Program-made: the position numbers and the translations under genes
Notes under the pieces: model-generated
Told to the model about the DNA's origin: nothing
The model's input: the letters and a program-made list of their open reading frames with translations, nothing else
Databases searched by the model: none
Shown: piece after piece, positions 1,972-23,560 of the stretch
Layout: every line of letters begins with the position of its first letter
How positions within the stretch are numbered: the first letter of the stretch is position 1
Source of the DNA: Paludibacteraceae bacterium
GTDB taxonomy: Bacteria > Bacteroidota > Bacteroidia > Bacteroidales > Paludibacteraceae
Length of the DNA: 64,000 bases
Direction: 5' to 3'
NCBI GenBank assembly: GCA_905234835.1
Contig: CAJOIZ010000002.1
Coordinates: 40,351-104,350 of the forward strand

Positions 1972-2119
1972 ATGCCACGAATATTTATATCATACAAACG
2001 CGCAGACAAGGATCTTGTTTTTCCAATTAAGGACAAGATTGAAACCGCAACCGGCGAAAAATATTGGATTGAGTTATAGAGATGATAGAGGCCAATGTAT
2101 TGAAAGACAGCATGGATAA
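1972..2119 (+). pseudogene. Decayed TIR-YD gene remnant
   Basis: An ATG at 1972 opens 35 codons (stop 2077-2079) that read as the start of a TIR domain: MPRIFISYKRADKD, then a K-I-E-T-A-T-G-E-K-Y-W-I-E stretch, ending where a TIR normally continues. In another frame, bases 2072-2119 encode SYRDDRGQCIERQHG and a stop. This closely matches the YD repeat SYDERGRCIE in the upstream protein. I read this as a second TIR-YD gene reduced by internal deletion to its first 35 codons and part of a terminal repeat. The TIR start is clear. The YD match is short and less certain. Confidence 0.55.
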
Positions 2120-3239
2120 AAATTCTAATGAAATATGGATTTTTCTATCCCATTCAAGCGCAGATTTTGAAAAAGTGCGTTTGTTAAGGAATTATCTGGA
2201 GGAGAAATCTTTCAGACCGCTAATGTTCTATCTGAAGTGTTTGGATTCTGATGAGGAAACATACAATTTGATAACTCGTGAAATAGATGTACGTACACGT
2301 TTTATATTATGCGATAGTGAAAATGCAAGAGCATCAGAATGGGTAAAACGTGAAATGGACTATATAACTTCAAAAGAACCAAAGCGTTCGTATGAGATAG
2401 TGGATTTATCAAAGCCAATTGAAGAATTAAAGTCACAACTTGATACTTATACAAATCAAACTAATATTTTCATTTCATATGCGAAGAGTGACAAAAAAAT
2501 GTGTGAATATATATGCAACCGATTACGTAAATATGATTTGAATGTTTTATGTGATTATGAGTTTCTTGATGGTGGAAGTGATTTTGCAGATGAAATAAAA
2601 AAAGAAATCCGGCATGCCGCAAATAATGGATATTTTATAGCTTTATTTACAACAGATTATATCAAGTCAGATTATTGTCTACATGAAATAAGTTACGCCA
2701 AAAACATTGGGGCAAATATAATTCCCATTGCTATAGAGGAGAATGCATATCATTATCTGTTATACACCCAACATATTTTAAATCCTAAAAATGTTATAAA
2801 TTTATCAACAAATGATAGAGCATCTATAGCGGATGATATTACTGATGCAATACTGAAAATGATTCTTCCGGGCGGAACCCGAATTACTCATGCCGAGAAT
2901 TTTAGATCGGGAAAGTTTAATGATATAGATATTGATGAATCTGAAAAGCAATATAAAATTTTGTTAAAAGAAGCTGAAGATTCACAGAACCCGCATGCCT
3001 TAAAATTTATAGGAAGGTGTTATGAATATGGTCTGGGAGTAGAGAAGGATCTTCGGATGGCAGTAAATTATTATGAAGAATATATTCATGCGCCAGAAAT
3101 TAATTATCATGTGGATGAGGTCTTTTTAGTTCATGTAAAAGAACTTCATGAACAATTATATGGAGTAGTTTCATCAAAAAATAAACAAAATGAGAATCTT
3201 CTCTGTAGAAGTATTAAGCGTATTTTTAATATTAGATAG
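2112..3239 (+). CDS. Tandem TIR-TIR protein with Sel1-like repeat
   Basis: Two TIR domains in a row. TIR1 (about residues 8-105) has F-L-S-H-S-S-A-D and a W-V-K-R-E motif. TIR2 (about 117-245) has I-F-I-S-Y-A-K-S-D and Y-C-L-H-E. The final Glu of each motif aligns with the catalytic glutamate of NAD-cleaving TIRs such as SARM1. Near residues 285-325 a Sel1/TPR-like unit (A-L-K-F-I-G-R-C-Y-E-Y-G-L-G-V) follows. The ORF track starts at 2082, but those ten codons overlap the YD remnant, and homologues I recall start at MDKNS, so I use 2112. The next TIR gene begins 3 bases after the stop, which suggests translational coupling. There is no signal peptide or membrane segment, so it is cytosolic. 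NAD hydrolase or signal synthase activity is inferred from the family. Confidence 0.85.
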   Translation: MDKNSNEIWIFLSHSSADFEKVRLLRNYLEEKSFRPLMFYLKCLDSDEETYNLITREIDVRTRFILCDSENARASEWVKREMDYITSKEPKRSYEIVDLSKPIEELKSQLDTYTNQTNIFISYAKSDKKMCEYICNRLRKYDLNVLCDYEFLDGGSDFADEIKKEIRHAANNGYFIALFTTDYIKSDYCLHEISYAKNIGANIIPIAIEENAYHYLLYTQHILNPKNVINLSTNDRASIADDITDAILKMILPGGTRITHAENFRSGKFNDIDIDESEKQYKILLKEAEDSQNPHALKFIGRCYEYGLGVEKDLRMAVNYYEEYIHAPEINYHVDEVFLVHVKELHEQLYGVVSSKNKQNENLLCRSIKRIFNIR

Positions 3240-3242
3240 ACT

Positions 3243-4532
3243 ATGACACTAACCTACGACATATTTATCAGTTACCGCCGAGATGCGTTTGAGTCGGCGA
3301 ATTTATTTGCAACAAGGTTGAAAGCCCTGGGATACCGCGTGTTCTTTGATGTGGAGTCAATGAATCCCGGTAAATTCAATGAGCAGTTATTAGACGTAAT
3401 CAGCAAGTGCAAGGACTTTATTCTCGTACTATCGCCCAATGCGCTTGATCGTTGCAACGATGAGGGAGACTGGGTGCTCAGAGAAACGATGTGTGCGATG
3501 AAGCATAAGAAGAACATTATTCCGATTATGCTTTCCGGTTTTGTATGGCCAACGGAGATGCCAGAAGGCATGGAGGAACTATGCAACTATCAAGCTTTAG
3601 CACCAGCTCCTAATACCTATTACGATTTGCAAGTGCAGCGTCTTAGAGGCTATCTCAAAAGTAAGGCACATTTTCAAACAAGAAAAAGATGGTTGATAGG
3701 GCTAAGTATCACCATTGGTGTATTGGCTGTAATTATGCTAATAGCTCAATTGACGTATATGCCTGTCGCTCAGCATGTAGCCGACAATCTGACCATGCAG
3801 ACGCAATGTATGAATGATTTGGCATGTATTAGTACTACGCTACAATCGGAATGGGGAAAATATGTCGATAAATATAAAATCAGTAAGAAAAGCGTAGAAA
3901 AATTAGAACTGAAATCCCTTATGTGCAAAACGATTCAAATTCAGGAACGCCAACGGGATGCGCTTTTGAAAACACTAAAAGCCAGTTCGATAAGTTTGAA
4001 TGGAATCTATTTGCCTTTATTCTGGATGCACGGAATCAGCCCTGCCGACTTGTTAATTTGTGACACCTACGCGGAGAGCCTGTTTGATGAACTCCAATCG
4101 CAGATAGATTATTATAACGGTCTATTAGAGAGCGATGAGTACACGCAGTTAAACATGCGAATGGCAAAGATTAACTCCAATATTATTATTGCCTATACTG
4201 CTACCTACTACTATGGTTATCTGCAAATGATGACCCATCTGCCAAAATCTACCTATAAAATGTTTTATGAAGTGTCTCCAGATTGGCATAATCTGCCTAA
4301 GGCAGGTATAGGATGGGCAGATGAAGAATATGAGCGTCAGCAAAAAATATTGGCAGATGAAGCCGAAAAAGAAATGGCGCAGTTGGAGATGATTTTAGCT
4401 TATTCGGAGTCTGAATTGGCTGAACAAGAAGAGAAACTAAGACAATTAGAAGAGATGGCGGATGAAGTGCAAAAACGTATCGATACAATGGGTGTGATTA
4501 ATGCTTTTATCTTGCAACAAATGCAACACTAA
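3243..4532 (+). CDS. Membrane-anchored TIR protein with coiled-coil tail
   Basis: Residues 1-125 form a TIR domain (D-I-F-I-S-Y-R-R-D at the start; G-D-W-V-L-R-E with the catalytic-type Glu). A single hydrophobic segment at about 149-171 follows (WLIGLSITIGVLAVIMLIA). The C-terminal 250 residues are largely helical, and about 355-415 is a strongly charged, Glu/Gln-rich coiled coil. The TIR is expected on the cytoplasmic side with the tail across or along the membrane; topology is inferred. The gene sits 3 bases after the TIR-TIR gene and 8 bases before the TIR-WD40 gene, so the three are probably one transcript. The C-terminal region is not a domain I recognise. Confidence 0.85.
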   Translation: MTLTYDIFISYRRDAFESANLFATRLKALGYRVFFDVESMNPGKFNEQLLDVISKCKDFILVLSPNALDRCNDEGDWVLRETMCAMKHKKNIIPIMLSGFVWPTEMPEGMEELCNYQALAPAPNTYYDLQVQRLRGYLKSKAHFQTRKRWLIGLSITIGVLAVIMLIAQLTYMPVAQHVADNLTMQTQCMNDLACISTTLQSEWGKYVDKYKISKKSVEKLELKSLMCKTIQIQERQRDALLKTLKASSISLNGIYLPLFWMHGISPADLLICDTYAESLFDELQSQIDYYNGLLESDEYTQLNMRMAKINSNIIIAYTATYYYGYLQMMTHLPKSTYKMFYEVSPDWHNLPKAGIGWADEEYERQQKILADEAEKEMAQLEMILAYSESELAEQEEKLRQLEEMADEVQKRIDTMGVINAFILQQMQH

Positions 4533-4540
4533 ACAAACCT

Positions 4541-7246
4541 ATGTCCGAAGAAAAACAATATTATGCCTTTATCTCTTACAAACGAGAAGATAAGAAGGAA
4601 GCGAAACGCTTACAACATCAATTGGAATATTATCGTCTGCCAAATAAACTGCGTCAAGAGAATCCGGAACTTCCTGAATATGTCCGGCCTGTATTCCGTG
4701 ATATGACGGATTTGGATGTCGGTGAACTCTCGACGCTCATACATGAAGCACTTGAGCAATCGCATTATTTAATAGTGGTCTGTTCTCCTCGTGCAGCAAA
4801 ATCAAAGTGGGTAAACGACGAAGTGGAGTATTTTATCTCATTAGACAAGCAAGATAAAATCATTCCATATATAATCGAAGGCGTTCCTCATGCAGATGAC
4901 CCTTCCGAAGAATGTTATCCACCGGCATTGTTGCATCTATCAAAAGAAAAGGAGTTACTTGGTGCCAATATTAATGAAGTAGGCAAAGAAGCAGCAGGAA
5001 TTCGTGTCGTAGCAAAGATGTTCGGTATTCGTTATGATACACTTTATCAACGATATCAAAGAGAGCAAAAGCGCAAAAGGCGAGTGATTGTAATAGCTAT
5101 TGCACTTGTAATTTTATTGCTGTTGTCTTTTGTCGGATATGTGTTGGATAATAACCACTTACTACAAAAGAAGAACGACTTAATAAAATTTCAAAATGAG
5201 ACTTTGGAAATTCAAAAATGCGAAATTGAACAAAGTCGGGATAGTATTATAAAAACTAACGCATTACTTCAAAAGAGTCAAGATAGCATAGAGTCTACAA
5301 ATCAAAAACTTATTGAATATAATGAAAAATTGGTAAAATCAAACTGGCAACTATTGGAAAATGATGCAAAGGCAGTTGCTTCAATAGCAGAAAAATATCT
5401 ACAAGAAGGCGACGCATATGATGCAATGAGATATGCATTATCTGTATTGCCTCATGACATGAAGCATCCAACTCGTCCATGGACCGAAGAAGCAGAGTTC
5501 GTTTTGCGCCGTGCAGCCGTTTCTAATAATTCATGTGTATATACTCCAGATGCGCCATTCTCTGCTGTCTTCAACAGAGATAACTCACTCATTGTATCTA
5601 CCCATGCAGACTCAATGCTTCGATTGTTTGAATATTCGTATGATAAGCCAATACGTTTGAAATATCAAATGCCTTTAAGAGCATCTTATGCTCAATACAG
5701 TCCGAACGAACAATATATTATCGCTAATGACTTTTCTGACACCTCGTTGGTAATTATTGACGTAAAGAGTATGCACATATGTAAACGTTTGACCTATCCG
5801 TCTGGATTGTGGGCGAGTTTTGCTTTTGATTCGACAAATAATGTGTTAATATCTTCTTCACATTCAGGTGATTTCTTATTTTGGAATATGCAGGAAGGAA
5901 AATATTTCGGCACATTGAGGAAAATAATAAAAGGGGCGCATAAGGAGACGTTATCCGAATTAAGAAACTCACTTTCAGTTAGTACAGATGGTACGAGACT
6001 AATTTCTTCTTTAGCATTTGAAAATAAAATTTCGATTTGGGACATCCCAAGCGAAAATCTTATTCGCGAGATATATTCGACTGATATGAGCAGCGAAATC
6101 TTTTTGATTCCCAATAGCCATAATATTCTATATCTTGAAAATGGTTTTAGCTACACACGGCGATGTATTAAAATATTATATGAAAATGATTCTATAGCGA
6201 CGCTTCCTATTCTTATGGAAGGGGTTTCTTGTTGTTCGGTTAGTCATAATGGTAAGTTAGCGGCTGTAGTTGGCGGCAATGAAATTCACTTAGTTGATCT
6301 TGATAATTTGAGCATCATTCGTACGTATAATTATCAGAAAAGAGGTAGTTATTCAGGAATAATGTATTCTGTAGCATTTAATGCATCAGATAATCAAATC
6401 ATTACTGGTGGCGCAGATGGCACTATTAGAACTTGGGATGTGGAGCAAAAGATATTTAATCCTACCATTTCCGTTGATGCATCCGATTGTGTGGCTAGTT
6501 TTGATGCAAGTGGAACCAAAATTATTACAGCTCATGATGATCGAATAATTCGCATTTGGGATAGTAAATCAGAACAACTTCTACAAAGTATTGATACAAA
6601 AAAATTATACCACATGTATAATGATATCAATGACGTGGAATTCGTTGATAATAACAATATTATATGTCGCCAATCAAACTATAAAGTTAAAATAAATTTA
6701 TCGACCTATGAGTGTATAGTAACTAAGTGGTGCTCATTCATGGGAGATACCAGTTTGATGGCATACTCAAGAGATAGTCTATTGGAGGCTATTGTTTTGC
6801 ATGATAATTATAATATTCAATTGACAAATAGAAAGGGTAAGACCGTTTCATTAAAAGGTCATATGGACCGGATTAATAGTGTTGTATTCAGCAATGATGG
6901 AAAATTGTTAGTGTCTGCTGCTGAGGATGGAACAATTCGTGTTTGGAATACTCGGACAGGAAAGATAATGCATGTTCTATATCATGATATGCGAGGTCTG
7001 TATTATGCTGCAATCAGTTATGATAAAAAGCGAGTGGCAACAGTGGATATGGCACATAGGCTTTATATTTGGGATTTGGAATCAGAAAAGGTTACAAATC
7101 ATATTGTATTCGTTTCTACTCCTCGAAAAGTATGTTTCTCCCCTGATGATGAAAGAATATTGTGTGGATTAGATAATGGTGAAATTAAAGTATTATACTT
7201 CCCGCCTATTCAAAAGTTAATAAATGCATCTCTAAAAAGAATTTAA
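4541..7246 (+). CDS. TIR-TM-WD40 repeat protein
   Basis: 901 residues. The N-terminal TIR (about 1-150) has Y-A-F-I-S-Y-K-R-E-D and K-W-V-N-D-E-V-E, keeping the catalytic-type Glu. A transmembrane helix lies at about 182-203 (VIVIAIALVILLLLSFVGYV), followed by a heptad-rich linker to about 265 with repeated Q-D-S-I-x-x-T/S-N motifs. From about 315 to the end a WD40-type propeller is recognisable from units ending I-R-T-W-D, I-R-I-W-D, I-R-V-W-N and L-Y-I-W-D. It was probably the last gene of the tandem TIR transcript before the RyR gene. In signalling NTPases and TIR proteins such propellers act as sensors or scaffolds; that role here is inferred. Confidence 0.88.
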   Translation: MSEEKQYYAFISYKREDKKEAKRLQHQLEYYRLPNKLRQENPELPEYVRPVFRDMTDLDVGELSTLIHEALEQSHYLIVVCSPRAAKSKWVNDEVEYFISLDKQDKIIPYIIEGVPHADDPSEECYPPALLHLSKEKELLGANINEVGKEAAGIRVVAKMFGIRYDTLYQRYQREQKRKRRVIVIAIALVILLLLSFVGYVLDNNHLLQKKNDLIKFQNETLEIQKCEIEQSRDSIIKTNALLQKSQDSIESTNQKLIEYNEKLVKSNWQLLENDAKAVASIAEKYLQEGDAYDAMRYALSVLPHDMKHPTRPWTEEAEFVLRRAAVSNNSCVYTPDAPFSAVFNRDNSLIVSTHADSMLRLFEYSYDKPIRLKYQMPLRASYAQYSPNEQYIIANDFSDTSLVIIDVKSMHICKRLTYPSGLWASFAFDSTNNVLISSSHSGDFLFWNMQEGKYFGTLRKIIKGAHKETLSELRNSLSVSTDGTRLISSLAFENKISIWDIPSENLIREIYSTDMSSEIFLIPNSHNILYLENGFSYTRRCIKILYENDSIATLPILMEGVSCCSVSHNGKLAAVVGGNEIHLVDLDNLSIIRTYNYQKRGSYSGIMYSVAFNASDNQIITGGADGTIRTWDVEQKIFNPTISVDASDCVASFDASGTKIITAHDDRIIRIWDSKSEQLLQSIDTKKLYHMYNDINDVEFVDNNNIICRQSNYKVKINLSTYECIVTKWCSFMGDTSLMAYSRDSLLEAIVLHDNYNIQLTNRKGKTVSLKGHMDRINSVVFSNDGKLLVSAAEDGTIRVWNTRTGKIMHVLYHDMRGLYYAAISYDKKRVATVDMAHRLYIWDLESEKVTNHIVFVSTPRKVCFSPDDERILCGLDNGEIKVLYFPPIQKLINASLKRI

Positions 7247-9319: not shown

Positions 9320-10000
9320 CTACTGCAACAAGTCCGGGCGGCGTTCACGGGTATGGGCAATGCTCTGTTCAAGCAAGTACTCCTCCACTTTCGCCTGATG
9401 GCCGGAAAGGAGAATGTCCGGTACTTTCCAACCCTTGTAATCAGCGGGGCGCGTATAGACTCCTGCTTCCAATAGCCCGTCCTGGAACGAGTCGTTGAGA
9501 GCGGATTCTACATCACCCAGTGCGCCCGGGAGTAACCGTACAATGGCATCTGTCATAATAGCGGCAGGCATTTCACCACCCGTCAGTACGTAGTCGCCAA
9601 CGGAATACTCCTTCGTAATCAGATGGTCGCGTACCCGCTGGTCCACCCCCTTATAATGCCCGCAAAGGATAATGAGGTTGTGGCAGAGGGAGAGGGTATT
9701 GGCTGTCTGTTGGGTAAACCGTTCACCGTCTGGGGCAGTGAAAATCACCTCATCGTATTCGCGCTCCTGCTTCAATGCGGATATACAGCGGTCGATAGGC
9801 TCAATCTGCAGCACCATACCCGCACCGAAACCGAAAGCGTAATCATCCACTTTCCGATGCCGATCGAGGGTATAGTCGCGCAGGTTATGTACGCATATCT
9901 CTGCCAATCCCTTCTGCTTGGCTCTTCCCAATATTGAATAGTTGAGCGGGCTTTCCAACAGTTCGGGACAGCAGGTGATTATGTCAATTCGCAAGGGCAT
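9320..10000 (-). CDS. trmD: tRNA (guanine-N1-)-methyltransferase TrmD
   Basis: 227 residues from the Met at 10000. The ORF track extends to 10159, but those 53 extra residues are antisense-frame sequence inside the neighbouring GH2 gene, and TrmD homologues start at M-P-L-R-I-D-I-I. Diagnostic motifs are [13 protein letters not shown] and [11 protein letters not shown], which form the trefoil-knot SAM site, and the C-terminal P-D-I-L-L-S-G-H-Q. It methylates G37 N1 in tRNAs reading CNN codons. It starts 10 bases after the GH2-mutarotase stop and is the last gene of the minus-strand run. It is not in the common rpsP-rimM-trmD-rplS arrangement. Confidence 0.95.
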
Positions 10001-10010
10001 ATAACATGGG

Positions 10011-12911
10011 TTATTCAGCTTTTGCGGCAGTAGAGAACCGAAAGACAGTTGTCGATTGGTATTTCTCACCCGGACGGATAATAGGCGATTGCCAATCGGG
10101 TTTGTTGGGTGAGTCAGGGAATTTCTGTGTCTCAAGGCATACTGCATTACGGTGTGCATATACCTCTCCGCGTTTGCCTGTTACCGTACCGTCAAGGAAA
10201 TTGCCGGTATAGACCTGCAAACCGGGTTCGGAAGTGAGGACATTGAGTACGATACCCGTTTCGGTCGAAGTCAGTGTAGCTGCGTTGGTTAGTGCCTGTA
10301 GGTTCTGACGCAGTACGAAATTGTGGTCGTAGCCATGTCCGTTATGCATCTGTACGTTGTCGGCATCTATGTCCTGTCCTATCGCTTTGGCGGCTGTCAG
10401 GAAGTCGAAAGGCGAACCAGCGGGAATATCGCTTATCTCGCCGGTGGTCATAAAGGTGTCGTCCACCGGGGTCATCTGTGCGGCATTGATCCATAAACGG
10501 TGGTTCATAACATTCTGAGTGCCATCCCCCGTGAGGTTGAAGTATGAATGATTGGTCATATTGATTACCGTAGGAGCATCGGTAGTGCCGAAATAGTCCA
10601 TACGGAGCGAATTGTCATCACCGAGCGTATAGACAACACCCGCTTCCACACGTCCGGGGAAGCCGTTGTCACCGTCATCCGAAACGAGAGTGAGACGTAG
10701 TGTACGGATATCGGTCTGCTCTGCATCAAAGACGCGATACTGCCAACCGGTAGGTCCTCCATGTAGCGTATGACCGAAATTATTGGTCGCTAACTGGTAG
10801 TCCTGCCCATCAATAGAGATCTGTCCTTTGTTAATTCTGTTAGCGTACCTGCCAATGGTGGCTCCGAAATCGGAGGGGATATTGACATAGTCCTCCACGT
10901 TGTCGAAACCGAGTACCACATCTCTCATTTTGCCATCCTTGTCGGGAACGAGCATCGATACGATGCGTCCGCCGAAATTGGTGATGCACACTTCCATCCC
11001 GTTCTTATTCTCAAGGACAAAGAGACGGGTGGTCTTACCCTGCCTCAGGCTTTGAAACCGTTGCGGGTCTAAACCCGAACGGGTACGAGTAGTCTGGCTG
11101 CCGGCTTCGATTACCGCCTCATTGGCAGCACGTACTTTTTGTTCGTCCACTTTCATTATTTTTCTGTCGTAAGTCATTAAACCGTTCACTTCTCCTTCCA
11201 CATCAGTTGTCTGCGTATAGACTGCCGCCGAGAAACCTTTGGCAACCAACTTCCGTAGCATATCGCTGTAACGCACATACTCCGCCGTCACTTCCTCACT
11301 GCTACCGAAACGGATGTACCCCCAGTTGCGTCTGTTCCACCATAAGTGGTCTTCTACGGGCCAGCCTATACCGCCGTACTCGCCGAGTACATTGACACGC
11401 TCCGCATCATAGAGATACATATCCGGCTGAGGATAATTGTGTAAGTCGGTGATATCTCCAACATGGCGGAAATTACCGCCCGATGACTGATTAACCAAAC
11501 GCGAAGGATCATACTGCTGCGTGAAGGCAACCACTTCCTCGGTGTCAAACTGCCCCCAAGCTTCGTTGAAGGGAACCCACATCACGACTGACGGGAAGGG
11601 CATACAGAAGTCCATTATGTCCTGCCATTCGCGGTAGTAGTTGGCAGCCGACTCATCGGTACGCTCACGGTCAGTGCCGCCCATAAACTGCCTCGGCTCC
11701 CACTCATTGCCCATATCGCCTGAAGGCATATCCTGCCATACGAGCATACCGAGTCGGTCACAATGATAGTACCAGCGTGCCGGTTCCACCTTTACGTGCT
11801 TGCGAATCATGTTGAAGCCAAGATCTTTGGTCTTCTGTATGTCAAAGCGCAGTGCTTCGTCGGTCGGAGCAGTGTATAGTCCGTCGGGCCACCAACCCTG
11901 GTCTAAGGGACCGTATTGGAAGAGTATGCGGTTGTTAAGCTGCATACGCCAGTGTCCTTTTGCGTCCTTAATGCGAGAGATCTTGCGCATAGCCGCATAA
12001 GAACGCACGCAGTCTATCTGTTTTTCGCCACGTTTGAGCGTAACCTGCATATCGTAGAGGAAAGGACTATCGGGCGACCACAGTTTGGCATCAGGTACCT
12101 GAAGGACAATGTTCTGTCCCGCTACGCCACGACCTACAGCCACTTGCCTACCCCCTTCGGTCAGGGTAACGTATGCCACGTCCTGATTGTCGGCAGAAGT
12201 ATGTACAAGCACGTTCAAGAGTGAACGGTCGATATCAGCCGTGGGTATAATGGCGGTTATATGGTTGTCCTGCACCGGTTCCATCCAGACGGTCTGCCAT
12301 ATACCGGTGACTGATGTGTACCATATAGAGCGAGGGCGGCTCACCTGCTTGCCACGGGGTTGGTAACCGTGATCCGTCGAGTCATATACGCGGAGGGTAA
12401 GCACCTGTTTACCTCTTTTAAGGAACGGGGTAGCGTCCACGGAGAAAGGCGTATAACCACCCTCGTGCACGCCTGCCAGTGCACCGTTCACATACACTTC
12501 TGCGCGCCAATCTACCGCACCGAAGTTGATCATCAATCGTCTGCTTCTCCAAGTACGCGGGATATTGAACTCGCGGCGGTACCATAACTCCTGCTTATCC
12601 GTAGGCACCCGTCCGACACCGGACAGAGCAGACTCAATGGCAAAAGGAACAAGGATATCGCCATCCCATGCTGTCGGTTCGGGGAGACCTTTCTCGGTGA
12701 GAGCGTACTGCCACAGTCCGTTCAGGTTACGCCATTCGCTACGGCGCAGTTGGGGACGCGGATACTCGGGGTGTACGTTGGCAGGTGATACCTGTTCCGC
12801 CCATTGGGTGCGGATCTTGTCACCCGCTATTTGCCACTTCGACGGCTTATTGCAATTGCATGCGGTCAGAAGGGTCAGGACACACAGTGTCAAAAATGAA
12901 ATACGTTTCAT
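10011..12911 (-). CDS. GH2 beta-galactosidase-like / galactose mutarotase fusion lipoprotein
   Basis: The protein begins with a lipoprotein signal ([18 protein letters not shown]); I take the Met at 12911 although the ORF extends to 12932. Residues about 30-600 are glycoside hydrolase family 2: sugar-binding jelly roll, Ig-like domain and TIM barrel, with acid/base Glu near 450 (F-N-E-A-W-G-Q) and nucleophile Glu near 511 (L-G-E-Y-G-G). Residues about 610-965 are a complete aldose 1-epimerase (GalM) with T-N-H-S-Y-F-N-L (catalytic His), G-Y-D-H-N-F and [11 protein letters not shown] (catalytic Glu). It would release a beta-sugar and convert it to the alpha anomer in one lipid-anchored polypeptide. 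The exact glycoside is not fixed; GH2 also includes glucuronidases and mannosidases. Confidence 0.9.
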
Positions 12912-12928
12912 AGTATGATAAACTTTGG

Positions 12929-14089
12929 TCATTGGTTGTCTTCGGTTACGTTACCGCCACTCACAATAAACGTCTTCATTGCGGAGAAAGCATTGTCCCA
13001 ACGATGTATGTGATGACGGTCGGTATCGGTAAGGAATATCTGCGAGAAAGGTGCAATCAGTTGCGCCTGCGCGGAAGGTAATACAATGCGTTCGCTTGTC
13101 ACCATCTCAATCAACTGACTTACACGGTGACTGTCCAGCCGGTCGAATATATCGTCAAGGAGCAGGAAAGGCGGTTGTTTAGTTTGGTTAGACAAGAACA
13201 GAGCCTGCGCAAGGCGAAGAGCCAGCAGACATGTCTTGATTTGTCCCTGTGACGCCACCTGCTTGATAGCATACCCTCCGATGGAAAAGAGCAGGTCATC
13301 CTTATGACATCCTACCGATGTCCATCCGAGTATAAGATCGCGCTGGCGTGTCTGCACCCATGCATCAGGCAGGGGACGGTCCGCCAACTGGCTCTGATAG
13401 GTCAGAAGGACCTCTTCACTACCTTTGGACAGAATAGCGTATGTGTCTGTGAAGAAAGGAACAAACTGCTCCGTAAACTGCCGTCGTGCTTCGTATATCT
13501 GTACCGCAAGGGGTTGCATCTGCTGTTCATAGATAGAAAGAACCTCCTCGTATGACGAAGGAGCGGTACTCCCTTCCTTGTCAGAGAGTTGTTTGAGCAG
13601 CGAGTTGCGCTGCTGCAGGAGTTGGTTGTAACTATTGAGAGCGGGCAGATACGTCGGGTCATACTGCGATATCGTGCCGTCCATAAACTTGCGTCTCACA
13701 TCGGAGCCGTCTAACACGATACCAATATCCTGCGGCGATATAAGCACCAACGGCAGGAGACCTATATGGTCACTCAACCGCTGGTATGTCTTATCGCCTT
13801 TGCGGAACTGCTTTTTTCCTCCCTGTCGCAAACCGCAGGCAATGGTCATCTGTTCGCCGTCTTTCTCATATACTCCCTGTACCATCATCATCTGCTCACC
13901 GTGACGGATACAGTCGCGGTCCTGTAGGGAGAAAGCAGACTTGGCGAACGAAAGCATATAGATAGCATCCAACACGTTCGTCTTTCCCTGTCCGTTCAAA
14001 CCTACGAGTCCGTTCAGCCTGTCTGCAAAGCGCAGATGGGCTTCCGGTATGTTTTTATAGTTGAGCAGATGCAGTTCCTTAAGAATCAT
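12929..14089 (-). CDS. recF: DNA replication and repair protein RecF
   Basis: 386 residues, normal length. The Walker A motif G-L-N-G-Q-G-K-T at about 30-37 is followed by the RecF-type V-L-D-A-I-Y. A C-terminal block has S-Q-G-Q-I-K-T, the ABC-type signature, and L-L-L-D-D-I-F-D-R-L-D (Walker B and D-loop). RecF is an SMC-like ATPase that helps RecOR load RecA at gaps. It starts 25 bases after the NtrC-type gene, and the GH2 ORF start could overlap its stop (ATGA). It is separated from dnaA/dnaN, as is usual in Bacteroidales. Confidence 0.95.
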   Translation of the reverse strand: MILKELHLLNYKNIPEAHLRFADRLNGLVGLNGQGKTNVLDAIYMLSFAKSAFSLQDRDCIRHGEQMMMVQGVYEKDGEQMTIACGLRQGGKKQFRKGDKTYQRLSDHIGLLPLVLISPQDIGIVLDGSDVRRKFMDGTISQYDPTYLPALNSYNQLLQQRNSLLKQLSDKEGSTAPSSYEEVLSIYEQQMQPLAVQIYEARRQFTEQFVPFFTDTYAILSKGSEEVLLTYQSQLADRPLPDAWVQTRQRDLILGWTSVGCHKDDLLFSIGGYAIKQVASQGQIKTCLLALRLAQALFLSNQTKQPPFLLLDDIFDRLDSHRVSQLIEMVTSERIVLPSAQAQLIAPFSQIFLTDTDRHHIHRWDNAFSAMKTFIVSGGNVTEDNQ

Positions 14090-22141: not shown

Positions 22142-23560
22142 TTATTGAAGACGAACGCCCTGTGCGTTGTAGCGGATGCCGTCACGAATGATAACGATGC
22201 GGCCTTCTTCGACAACTTTTACGACTTTCACCTCTGCTTCTACCTGGTCAACAGCAGTAGGAGTAGCGCCAAGACGGTAGAGCGTGAGAGGTCCGCCTGT
22301 ATTCTCTGCGTAGCAGGCAAAACCATACGTATTATTATTACGCAGCCACTTGTTGCCAGAGTCTTGGGAAGAAGCAGCACGAGCTACATTCTCAAACTCG
22401 TAAGTATTGGCTTCGGTGACGGAGATGTTCCACTTGGCGTTGTCGGTCGTAGCGTCGTCTAACAAGGTGCCTTTGTTCTTGGCATCCGTGCTGGCAGCGT
22501 ATTTGCCTGTGCTCTCGTTGAAGAGTGTCCAGTGGTCACCTGCAGAAGCAATGTGCCAGATAATGTCGGCTGCGGGATCAACCAATACTTCTCCTGAAAC
22601 AGTAAACGTAGCGACATCAAAACGGTTCACTTTCTCTTGCTTAGCGTTCTCCTGGATGAAGGCTTTCATTGCGTATTCGCCATAGGTGATTACGTAGTCA
22701 CCTTCAACAACTTCACCTGACATCTTCACGAAGCCACCAGAAAGGTCAGCAACATTCAACTTAACTGATACCTGAGCGGATACATTGTCCGCTTCGGACT
22801 TGATGGTTAGGGTCTGGCTGTATTTGCCTTCCGTAGCGGGATTGGCAGTGATGGTCAGTTTGTCGCCACTCTCAGCGAGTGAACCCGATACGCTGAACGG
22901 TGAAGCCAATGCCGTATAGGTTATCTCGCCCTTCAGATTACCGAAAGAAACAGTGATTTCCATCGAAACAGCCTTGTCACCAACGGCTTTGGTGCCGAAA
23001 TCAGCAGCGGCAGGCGTAACGTTAATAAACGGAGCGGTTGACACTTGGAGCTCATACACGGTGAAATTATGTCCGTAGCTGTCTATATTCGATTGCGCAT
23101 AAGCCTTGTAGCCATTGGAGCCTTCGGAGGTCTCACCGAGGAAACGGTCAGCGTTGGAGACGTTGGTGATAGTAGCCTCATCGCCATCGAATGTGAATTT
23201 CCAACGAGCACTTGCATCGTTAGACATCGTAATGTCGGTCTTCTTGGAGGGGTTGCCGAGGAAGATGTGACCTGTAGGATCATCAGCGTACTTCTTTTCG
23301 TTACGGATAGCAAAACCTTCGATATTGTCTCCGTCCAGTTTCCATACGTAGTCCTCTTTACCAGTCAGCGCGGTTGTCTGGTAGTCATCCGTAGCCTGTA
23401 GAACTTTGTTAACGAGCGAGGAGCAGAGAACGTGGTCGTTGCGCTCGAACACATAGAGACCGCCGTCCTTGACCTCGGTCACCTTGACGAGGCTGTACTG
23501 TTGGGCCGAAAGAGTGCCCATTAGCAGCAAAGCTGCTGCGAGAGTAAACAGTTTTTTCAT
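22142..23560 (-). CDS. Secreted surface protein with short C-terminal tag
   Basis: 472 residues with a signal peptide (MKKLFTLAAALLLMGTLSAQ). Residues about 20-165 and 280-430 look like related lectin- or ricin-like modules (L-Y-V-F-E-R-N-D, W-K-F-T-F-D-G-D; D-Y-V-I-T-Y-G-E-Y, A-K-W-N-I-S-V). Between them is an Ig-like domain with I-N-V-T-P-A-A-A-D-F-G-T. It ends G-R-I-V-I-I-R-D-G-I-R-Y-N-A-Q-G, the tag shared by six proteins here and probably an export or anchoring signal. It lies 94 bases after adk and may be cotranscribed with it. Function unknown. Confidence 0.82.
   Translation of the reverse strand: MKKLFTLAAALLLMGTLSAQQYSLVKVTEVKDGGLYVFERNDHVLCSSLVNKVLQATDDYQTTALTGKEDYVWKLDGDNIEGFAIRNEKKYADDPTGHIFLGNPSKKTDITMSNDASARWKFTFDGDEATITNVSNADRFLGETSEGSNGYKAYAQSNIDSYGHNFTVYELQVSTAPFINVTPAAADFGTKAVGDKAVSMEITVSFGNLKGEITYTALASPFSVSGSLAESGDKLTITANPATEGKYSQTLTIKSEADNVSAQVSVKLNVADLSGGFVKMSGEVVEGDYVITYGEYAMKAFIQENAKQEKVNRFDVATFTVSGEVLVDPAADIIWHIASAGDHWTLFNESTGKYAASTDAKNKGTLLDDATTDNAKWNISVTEANTYEFENVARAASSQDSGNKWLRNNNTYGFACYAENTGGPLTLYRLGATPTAVDQVEAEVKVVKVVEEGRIVIIRDGIRYNAQGVRLQ

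Follow-up and report, generated by a model that had tools for sequence, protein, structure and literature searches.

The GalM mutarotases of Lactococcus (PDB 1L7J) and man (human GALM, 1SNZ) are free enzymes. In yeast GAL10 (PDB 1z45), a mutarotase is fused to another galactose enzyme, UDP-galactose 4-epimerase. The fifth domain of LacZ, which follows the GH2 core, has a mutarotase-like fold. A GH2 protein of Bacteroides cellulosilyticus (7SF2), whose solved chain is GH2 alone, was deposited as a beta-galactosidase; we know of no activity on record for it. GH2 group III includes alpha-L-arabinofuranosidases, and furanosidase activities alone are on record for this group (PMC12243196). A secretion signal is found in ~80% of GH2_18 vs. 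~10% of GH2_19 proteins, and the replacement of the loop-8 Trp by Thr is a mark of GH2_18 (PMC12243196). ORF1110 from Streptomyces JHA19 (GH2_18; PDB 9J6M/9J6N) is a beta-D-galactofuranosidase. Mutagenesis revealed that replacement of its E464 strongly reduces catalysis (PMC11084152).

The window analysed here, a stretch of 64,000 nucleotides, belongs to contig C2. The genome measures 2.68 Mb, is 97.8% complete and has rumen Paludibacteraceae as its nearest named relatives. The window contains a gene that joins a GH2 glycosidase and a GalM-type mutarotase in one predicted lipoprotein. The fusion is not reported in the open-licence papers searched, as judged by title and abstract. The two enzyme families themselves are familiar. 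To judge from the literature searched, the novelty lies in the architecture, in its recurrence and in the lack of any other GalM.

The fusion gene and its product

The gene is a single intact ORF that ends with the stop codon at 10011-10013 (Table 1). An alternative in-frame ATG at 12932 would yield 973 aa. Of the two ATGs, the sister-species homologues have the downstream one (12911, MKRISFL...) and lack that at 12932, so that position 12911 is the likely start (966 aa). This is also the end coordinate given by a preceding sequence-only reading of the locus.

Table 1. Coordinates of the fusion gene, its parts and its neighbours in the window (residues in 966-aa numbering)
Feature	Position	Strand	Remarks
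Fusion gene	10011..12911	(-)	966 aa: signal peptide II, GH2 furanosidase-type glycosidase, linker, GalM mutarotase (predicted)
Lipoprotein signal peptide	12858..12911	(-)	18 residues; lipobox LTAC at residues 15-18, Cys at residue 18
GH2 half	11103..12842	(-)	Residues 24-603; closest solved structures 7sf2 and beta-D-galactofuranosidase 9j6m/9j6n
Putative catalytic acid/base Glu450	11562..11564	(-)	NE motif; equivalent of JHA19 E464
Putative catalytic nucleophile Glu511	11379..11381	(-)	GEYGG; by alignment
Linker	11025..11102	(-)	Residues 604-629; second part corresponds to the N-terminus of free GalM lipoproteins in their mature form
GalM / Aldose_epim half	10041..11024	(-)	Residues 630-957; H717, H788, D862, E927
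recF-like gene	12929..14089	(-)	Context; directly upstream of the fusion gene, gap 17 bp
trmD-like gene	9320..10000	(-)	Context; directly downstream, gap 10 bp; named from sequence, without Pfam scan

Pfam detects GH2_N (68-192), GH2 (267-316), GH2_C (359-495) and Aldose_epim (637-964; all in 973-aa numbering). The Aldose_epim domain is full length (profile 2-298 of 299) with E=1.4e-81. As read from the sequence motif, the N-terminus follows the signal peptide II pattern composed of a positively charged start, a hydrophobic stretch and the lipobox Cys. A similar lipobox is present in most fused homologues with a complete N-terminus. The AlphaFold model of the fusion protein has a mean pLDDT of 89.5 and a pTM of 0.70. 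According to these values, both halves appear well modelled, and their mutual orientation is less sure.

The sequence-only reading had stated that both halves retain their catalytic residues, and this was borne out. Its approximate positions for the two GH2 glutamates proved accurate to the residue (E450 and E511). The GalM half has H717, H788, D862 and E927 plus R688. The His, His, Asp, Glu set of the GalM half was matched by comparison with 1l7j. None of these residues varies in the 26 aligned rows available for the respective half.

Two further regions of the window attracted attention. Three consecutive TIR-domain genes (TIR with Sel1, TIR, and TIR with a WD40 propeller) are located on the plus strand at 2082-7246, for which PADLOC gives weak ThsB/SAVED-TIR-like matches only. 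Together with an adjacent RHS-repeat gene (6-1904) they constitute a possible defence island. On the minus strand, 22142-23560 encodes a 472-aa protein whose only family match, to a ricin-type lectin, is weak.

The GH2 half groups with furanosidases

A beta-galactosidase that releases beta-galactose had been proposed in the sequence-only reading. This assignment is probably wrong. In phmmer searches, the GH2 half scores 810 bits with 7sf2, 506 bits with 9j6n (the galactofuranosidase of JHA19) and 304 bits with 7xyr (GH2_19), which comes next after 7sf2 and 9j6m/9j6n. All remaining GH2 structures are much weaker, and any solved GH2 outside group III reaches ~85 bits or less. The NCBIfam LacZ-type models NF052611, NF007666 and NF007074 yield 53-92 bits vs. 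cut-offs of 999-1284. In the GH2 tree, the window protein is found with 7sf2 and with 9j6n, which itself sits on a long branch, and 7xyr and the GH2_19-like genes lie across a branch labelled 100. Family scores and tree rule out a LacZ-type beta-galactosidase. Foldseek matches the GH2 half to 9j6n with a TM of 0.92 (target-normalised) and also to 7sf2. By these comparisons, the GH2 half groups with the furanosidases (GH2 group III, GH2_18) and not with LacZ. Since it is closest to the JHA19 enzyme and far from LacZ, and group III has furanosidase activities only, its product is likely galactofuranose (or arabinofuranose).

The window protein shares with the JHA19 enzyme the GH2 group and fold, the NE acid/base motif, the GE(F/Y)GG nucleophile motif and the motifs RKHxKVEP and VYTxxTDVExEVNGLxTYDR. 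In contrast to the window protein, whose substrate is a prediction, the solved JHA19 chain is without a mutarotase domain; the identity is 43% in the structural alignment. With 7SF2, identity amounts to 58% across the whole GH2 half. The secretion signal expected of a GH2_18 protein is present as the lipobox, by motif. T566 in VYTQTTDVE is conserved and common to 9j6n at the sequence level; it may be the counterpart of the loop-8 Trp.

Two side observations concern this enzyme group. The nucleophile of the JHA19 enzyme was placed at E573, i.e. 109 residues after the acid/base Glu (PMC11084152). However, in the 9j6n sequence the Glu of GEFGG, which aligns with the conserved GH2 nucleophile, is located 66 residues after the acid/base Glu, so that the published numbering or assignment may need checking. 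Furthermore, phage records including MT836126.1 ('Bacteriophage sp.', human faeces; unannotated) gave GH2-only, GH2_18-like matches (59% identity), possibly due to bacterial contamination.

The C-terminal half is of the GalM type

Foldseek aligns the GalM half with 4rnl and 1snz at a TM of ~0.92. It scores 331.7 bits with the NCBIfam subfamily model NF008277, above the cut-off of 240, and 336.1 bits with the equivalog model TIGR02636, below the cut-off of 397.65. On these scores, the C-terminal half is GalM-type and is not asserted as a strict equivalog. Fold and His/His/Asp/Glu set are common to the enzymes of Lactococcus and man; those are free, whereas the window GalM forms the C-terminal half of a lipoprotein glycosidase. 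It also differs from the mutarotase in GAL10, whose partner is an epimerase and not an exported glycosidase.

Could the GalM half be a module for structure or sugar binding, comparable to the mutarotase-like domain of LacZ? Foldseek does stretch the whole model along LacZ-type enzymes, but with an rmsd of ~24 Å. All catalytic residues are invariant, and both sequence and fold match genuine mutarotases. Moreover, each of the 13 genomes with a fused gene (see below) has exactly one PF01263 match, and this is the fused copy. A module of this kind is very improbable. The C-terminal half would instead be a genuine GalM with its catalytic residues, which distinguishes the window protein from LacZ-type beta-galactosidases.

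Distribution of the fusion and its ancestral-like gene pair

A survey of 178 genomes of the genus revealed the fusion in one open frame in 13 genomes, i.e. in 13 species. The copy in G957 begins at a contig edge, and in G012 the fusion is interrupted by a contig end. Among the 13 species, the fused proteins are identical down to ~66%. The gene is located behind recF in six genomes (G000, G040, G016, G902, G954 and, truncated, G012) and elsewhere in others. A single frame in 13 species and at several loci rules out an assembly join, which the sequence-only reading had considered, and confirms its claim of a GH2-GalM fusion in one lipoprotein. Very long GH2_18-like frames in G417, G199, G124, G319, G448, G120 and G393 were rejected as candidates, since they are without GalM. 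The short-chain dehydrogenases that adjoin the gene in G005 and lie near it in G048 are different genes (29%).

In two sister species (G048 and G881), GH2 and GalM are encoded by separate genes, arranged as in the fusion. Here, a GH43 domain precedes GH2 in one protein, and a lipoprotein gene of its own, which begins 6-14 bp past the GH43-GH2 stop, encodes GalM. In G048, where the order is SusC-SusD-DUF3823-(GH43-GH2)-GalM lipoprotein, an in-frame TAA is located 6 bp before the galM ATG. Fused and split forms come together in the trees of both halves (support 100/100 and 99). Comparison of the junctions showed that the linker of the fused protein continues into the sequence past the lipobox of free GalM. 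This means, loss of the GH2 stop and of the GalM signal peptide explains the fusion, and the adjacent gene pair can be regarded as its ancestral-like state. The GH43-GH2_18 double enzyme with the GalM lipoprotein directly after it is located at L148 (1245-11154) and L033 (8909-12875).

Such a short path would also be open to chance: an operon deletion could have joined two ordinary enzymes, the gain being merely fixed stoichiometry and one export signal. The closely spaced pair in the same order fits this explanation, as losing a stop and a signal peptide suffices. However, the fusion has been kept in 13 species despite their sequence divergence, a GH2-GalM fusion arose independently elsewhere, and a GalM of this type has become linked to a GH3 enzyme (both see below). 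Chance joining is unlikely.

Other glycosidase-GalM fusions and gene pairs

With the GalM half as query, no other GalM frame >500 aa was found among the places listed in a 396-genome phylum sample. The fusion is rare, in line with the sequence-only view of an unusual architecture. L042 (Bacteroidales, horse faeces) encodes a GH2_18-like and a GalM half in one frame, the start of which is lost at the contig end. The nearest relatives of each half differ from those of the window fusion, and one origin of both fusions is rejected (AU p 4.5e-72 for GalM and 1.2e-5 for GH2). Judged by these tree tests, the L042 fusion arose independently.

The congener G900 encodes a GH3-Fn3-GalM fusion lipoprotein (L265, 7117-10458) with a GalM of the window fusion's type and a GH3 half closest to beta-glucosidases. 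Its gene is preceded by SusC, SusD and a PF10091 glycoamylase-like gene, and the fusion is possibly for beta-1,2-glucan. As in the window protein, an exported glycosidase ends in a GalM half of the same clade; in contrast, the partner is of the GH3 beta-glucosidase type, and a free GalM is also kept in G900. This case suggests that the partner, through the sugar it sets free, dictates what the mutarotase acts on.

In an order-wide sample, 60 loci were picked on a GH2_18-like gene alone, with GalM disregarded. GalM was present at a distance of <=6 kb in seven of the 60 loci vs. 0.45 expected, and four of these genes are within 160 bp. The expected value was derived from 62 GalM genes in ~94 Mb, and the Poisson probability of 5e-7 ignores relatedness and the clustering of sugar genes. 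A Catenovulum plasmid (Gammaproteobacteria; L274, 9926-14483) has genes for GH2, GH43 and an aldose epimerase in a row. According to this gene row, the GH2-GalM association crosses phyla. Plasmid matches in Persicobacter and Deinococcus were ruled out as fusions: they are neighbouring genes, a group III-like GH2 gene side by side with a GalM gene.

Sugar metabolism and proposed function

The split-form genomes G048 and G881 have three PF01263 matches each. A scan of 20 other congeners showed a single free GalM in 17, two copies in one and none in the remaining two. GalK is present in 7/7 genus genomes, and AraA_N, the N-domain of L-arabinose isomerase, was found in 0/7 with controls detected, which favours galactofuranose over arabinofuranose. 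In the window genome, the galactokinase gene is located between those for EF-P and trigger factor without galM beside it; in G048, galK and galM are adjacent. UDP-galactopyranose mutase was found in only two of the seven genomes (G000 and G040), so that the consumption of self-made Galf glycans is improbable as a general explanation.

We propose, with an even chance of being right, that an extracytoplasmic furanosidase and a tethered mutarotase work in series and equilibrate the product before uptake, both activities and the furanose substrate being predictions. A cell-envelope lipoprotein, presumably anchored facing the periplasm, would hold the two enzymes. The GH2 group III half would be an exo-acting retaining furanosidase that most likely removes terminal beta-D-galactofuranose and frees the sugar in its bound configuration. 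Owing to its proximity, the attached GalM half would receive the released galactose and, by opening and closing the ring, keep the anomers balanced before import. Usable galactose, including the alpha form phosphorylated by galactokinase, would then be available without a cytoplasmic mutarotase. In the absence of other GalM, galactokinase would depend on the fused GalM and on spontaneous exchange. The presence of GalK and the fused copy as the only PF01263 protein in all 13 fused genomes agree with extracytoplasmic mutarotation feeding galactokinase, an idea already put forward in the sequence-only reading. Co-localisation would be what selection favoured.

Several observations weigh against this proposal. 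In the six genomes where the gene adjoins recF, it lies outside any polysaccharide utilisation locus. The free GalM could have been lost only once, within one clade, and numerous genomes are incomplete. With the domain orientation unsure, channelling is a proposal. Furthermore, free galactofuranose and the pyranose interconvert spontaneously, so that a mutarotase is perhaps unneeded there. If the GalM half acted on the furanose itself, it would be a ring-size converter that turns galactofuranose into galactopyranose at the envelope of a lineage without cytoplasmic mutarotation. Conversion of furanose to pyranose is, to our knowledge, not known for GalM enzymes, and this variant is improbable.

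The GH43 partners in the sister loci and in Catenovulum may point to arabinofuranose, and owing to them the chief rival is the same two-step design for L-arabinose, with the GH2 half as an alpha-L-arabinofuranosidase and GalM equilibrating L-arabinose. GalM enzymes accept L-arabinose, group III comprises the required activity, and the nearest named PDB relatives of the sister-species GH43 partner include alpha-L-arabinofuranosidases (3akf, 5m8e). On the other hand, the seven genomes scanned have galactokinase and no detected AraA_N, and among characterised enzymes, a galactofuranosidase is closest to the GH2 half. A design for L-arabinose is somewhat unlikely.

Significance

Placing the GH2 half among the furanosidases corrects the beta-galactosidase reading. 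With its predicted activities, the fusion protein would be a natural two-step enzyme, in which the glycosidase product is processed at once by the attached mutarotase. The ancestral-like gene pair can be seen alongside two GH2 fusions of independent origin and one GH3 fusion. Since searches in 13 species detected no GalM besides the fused copy, the role of mutarotases outside the cytoplasm is now testable.
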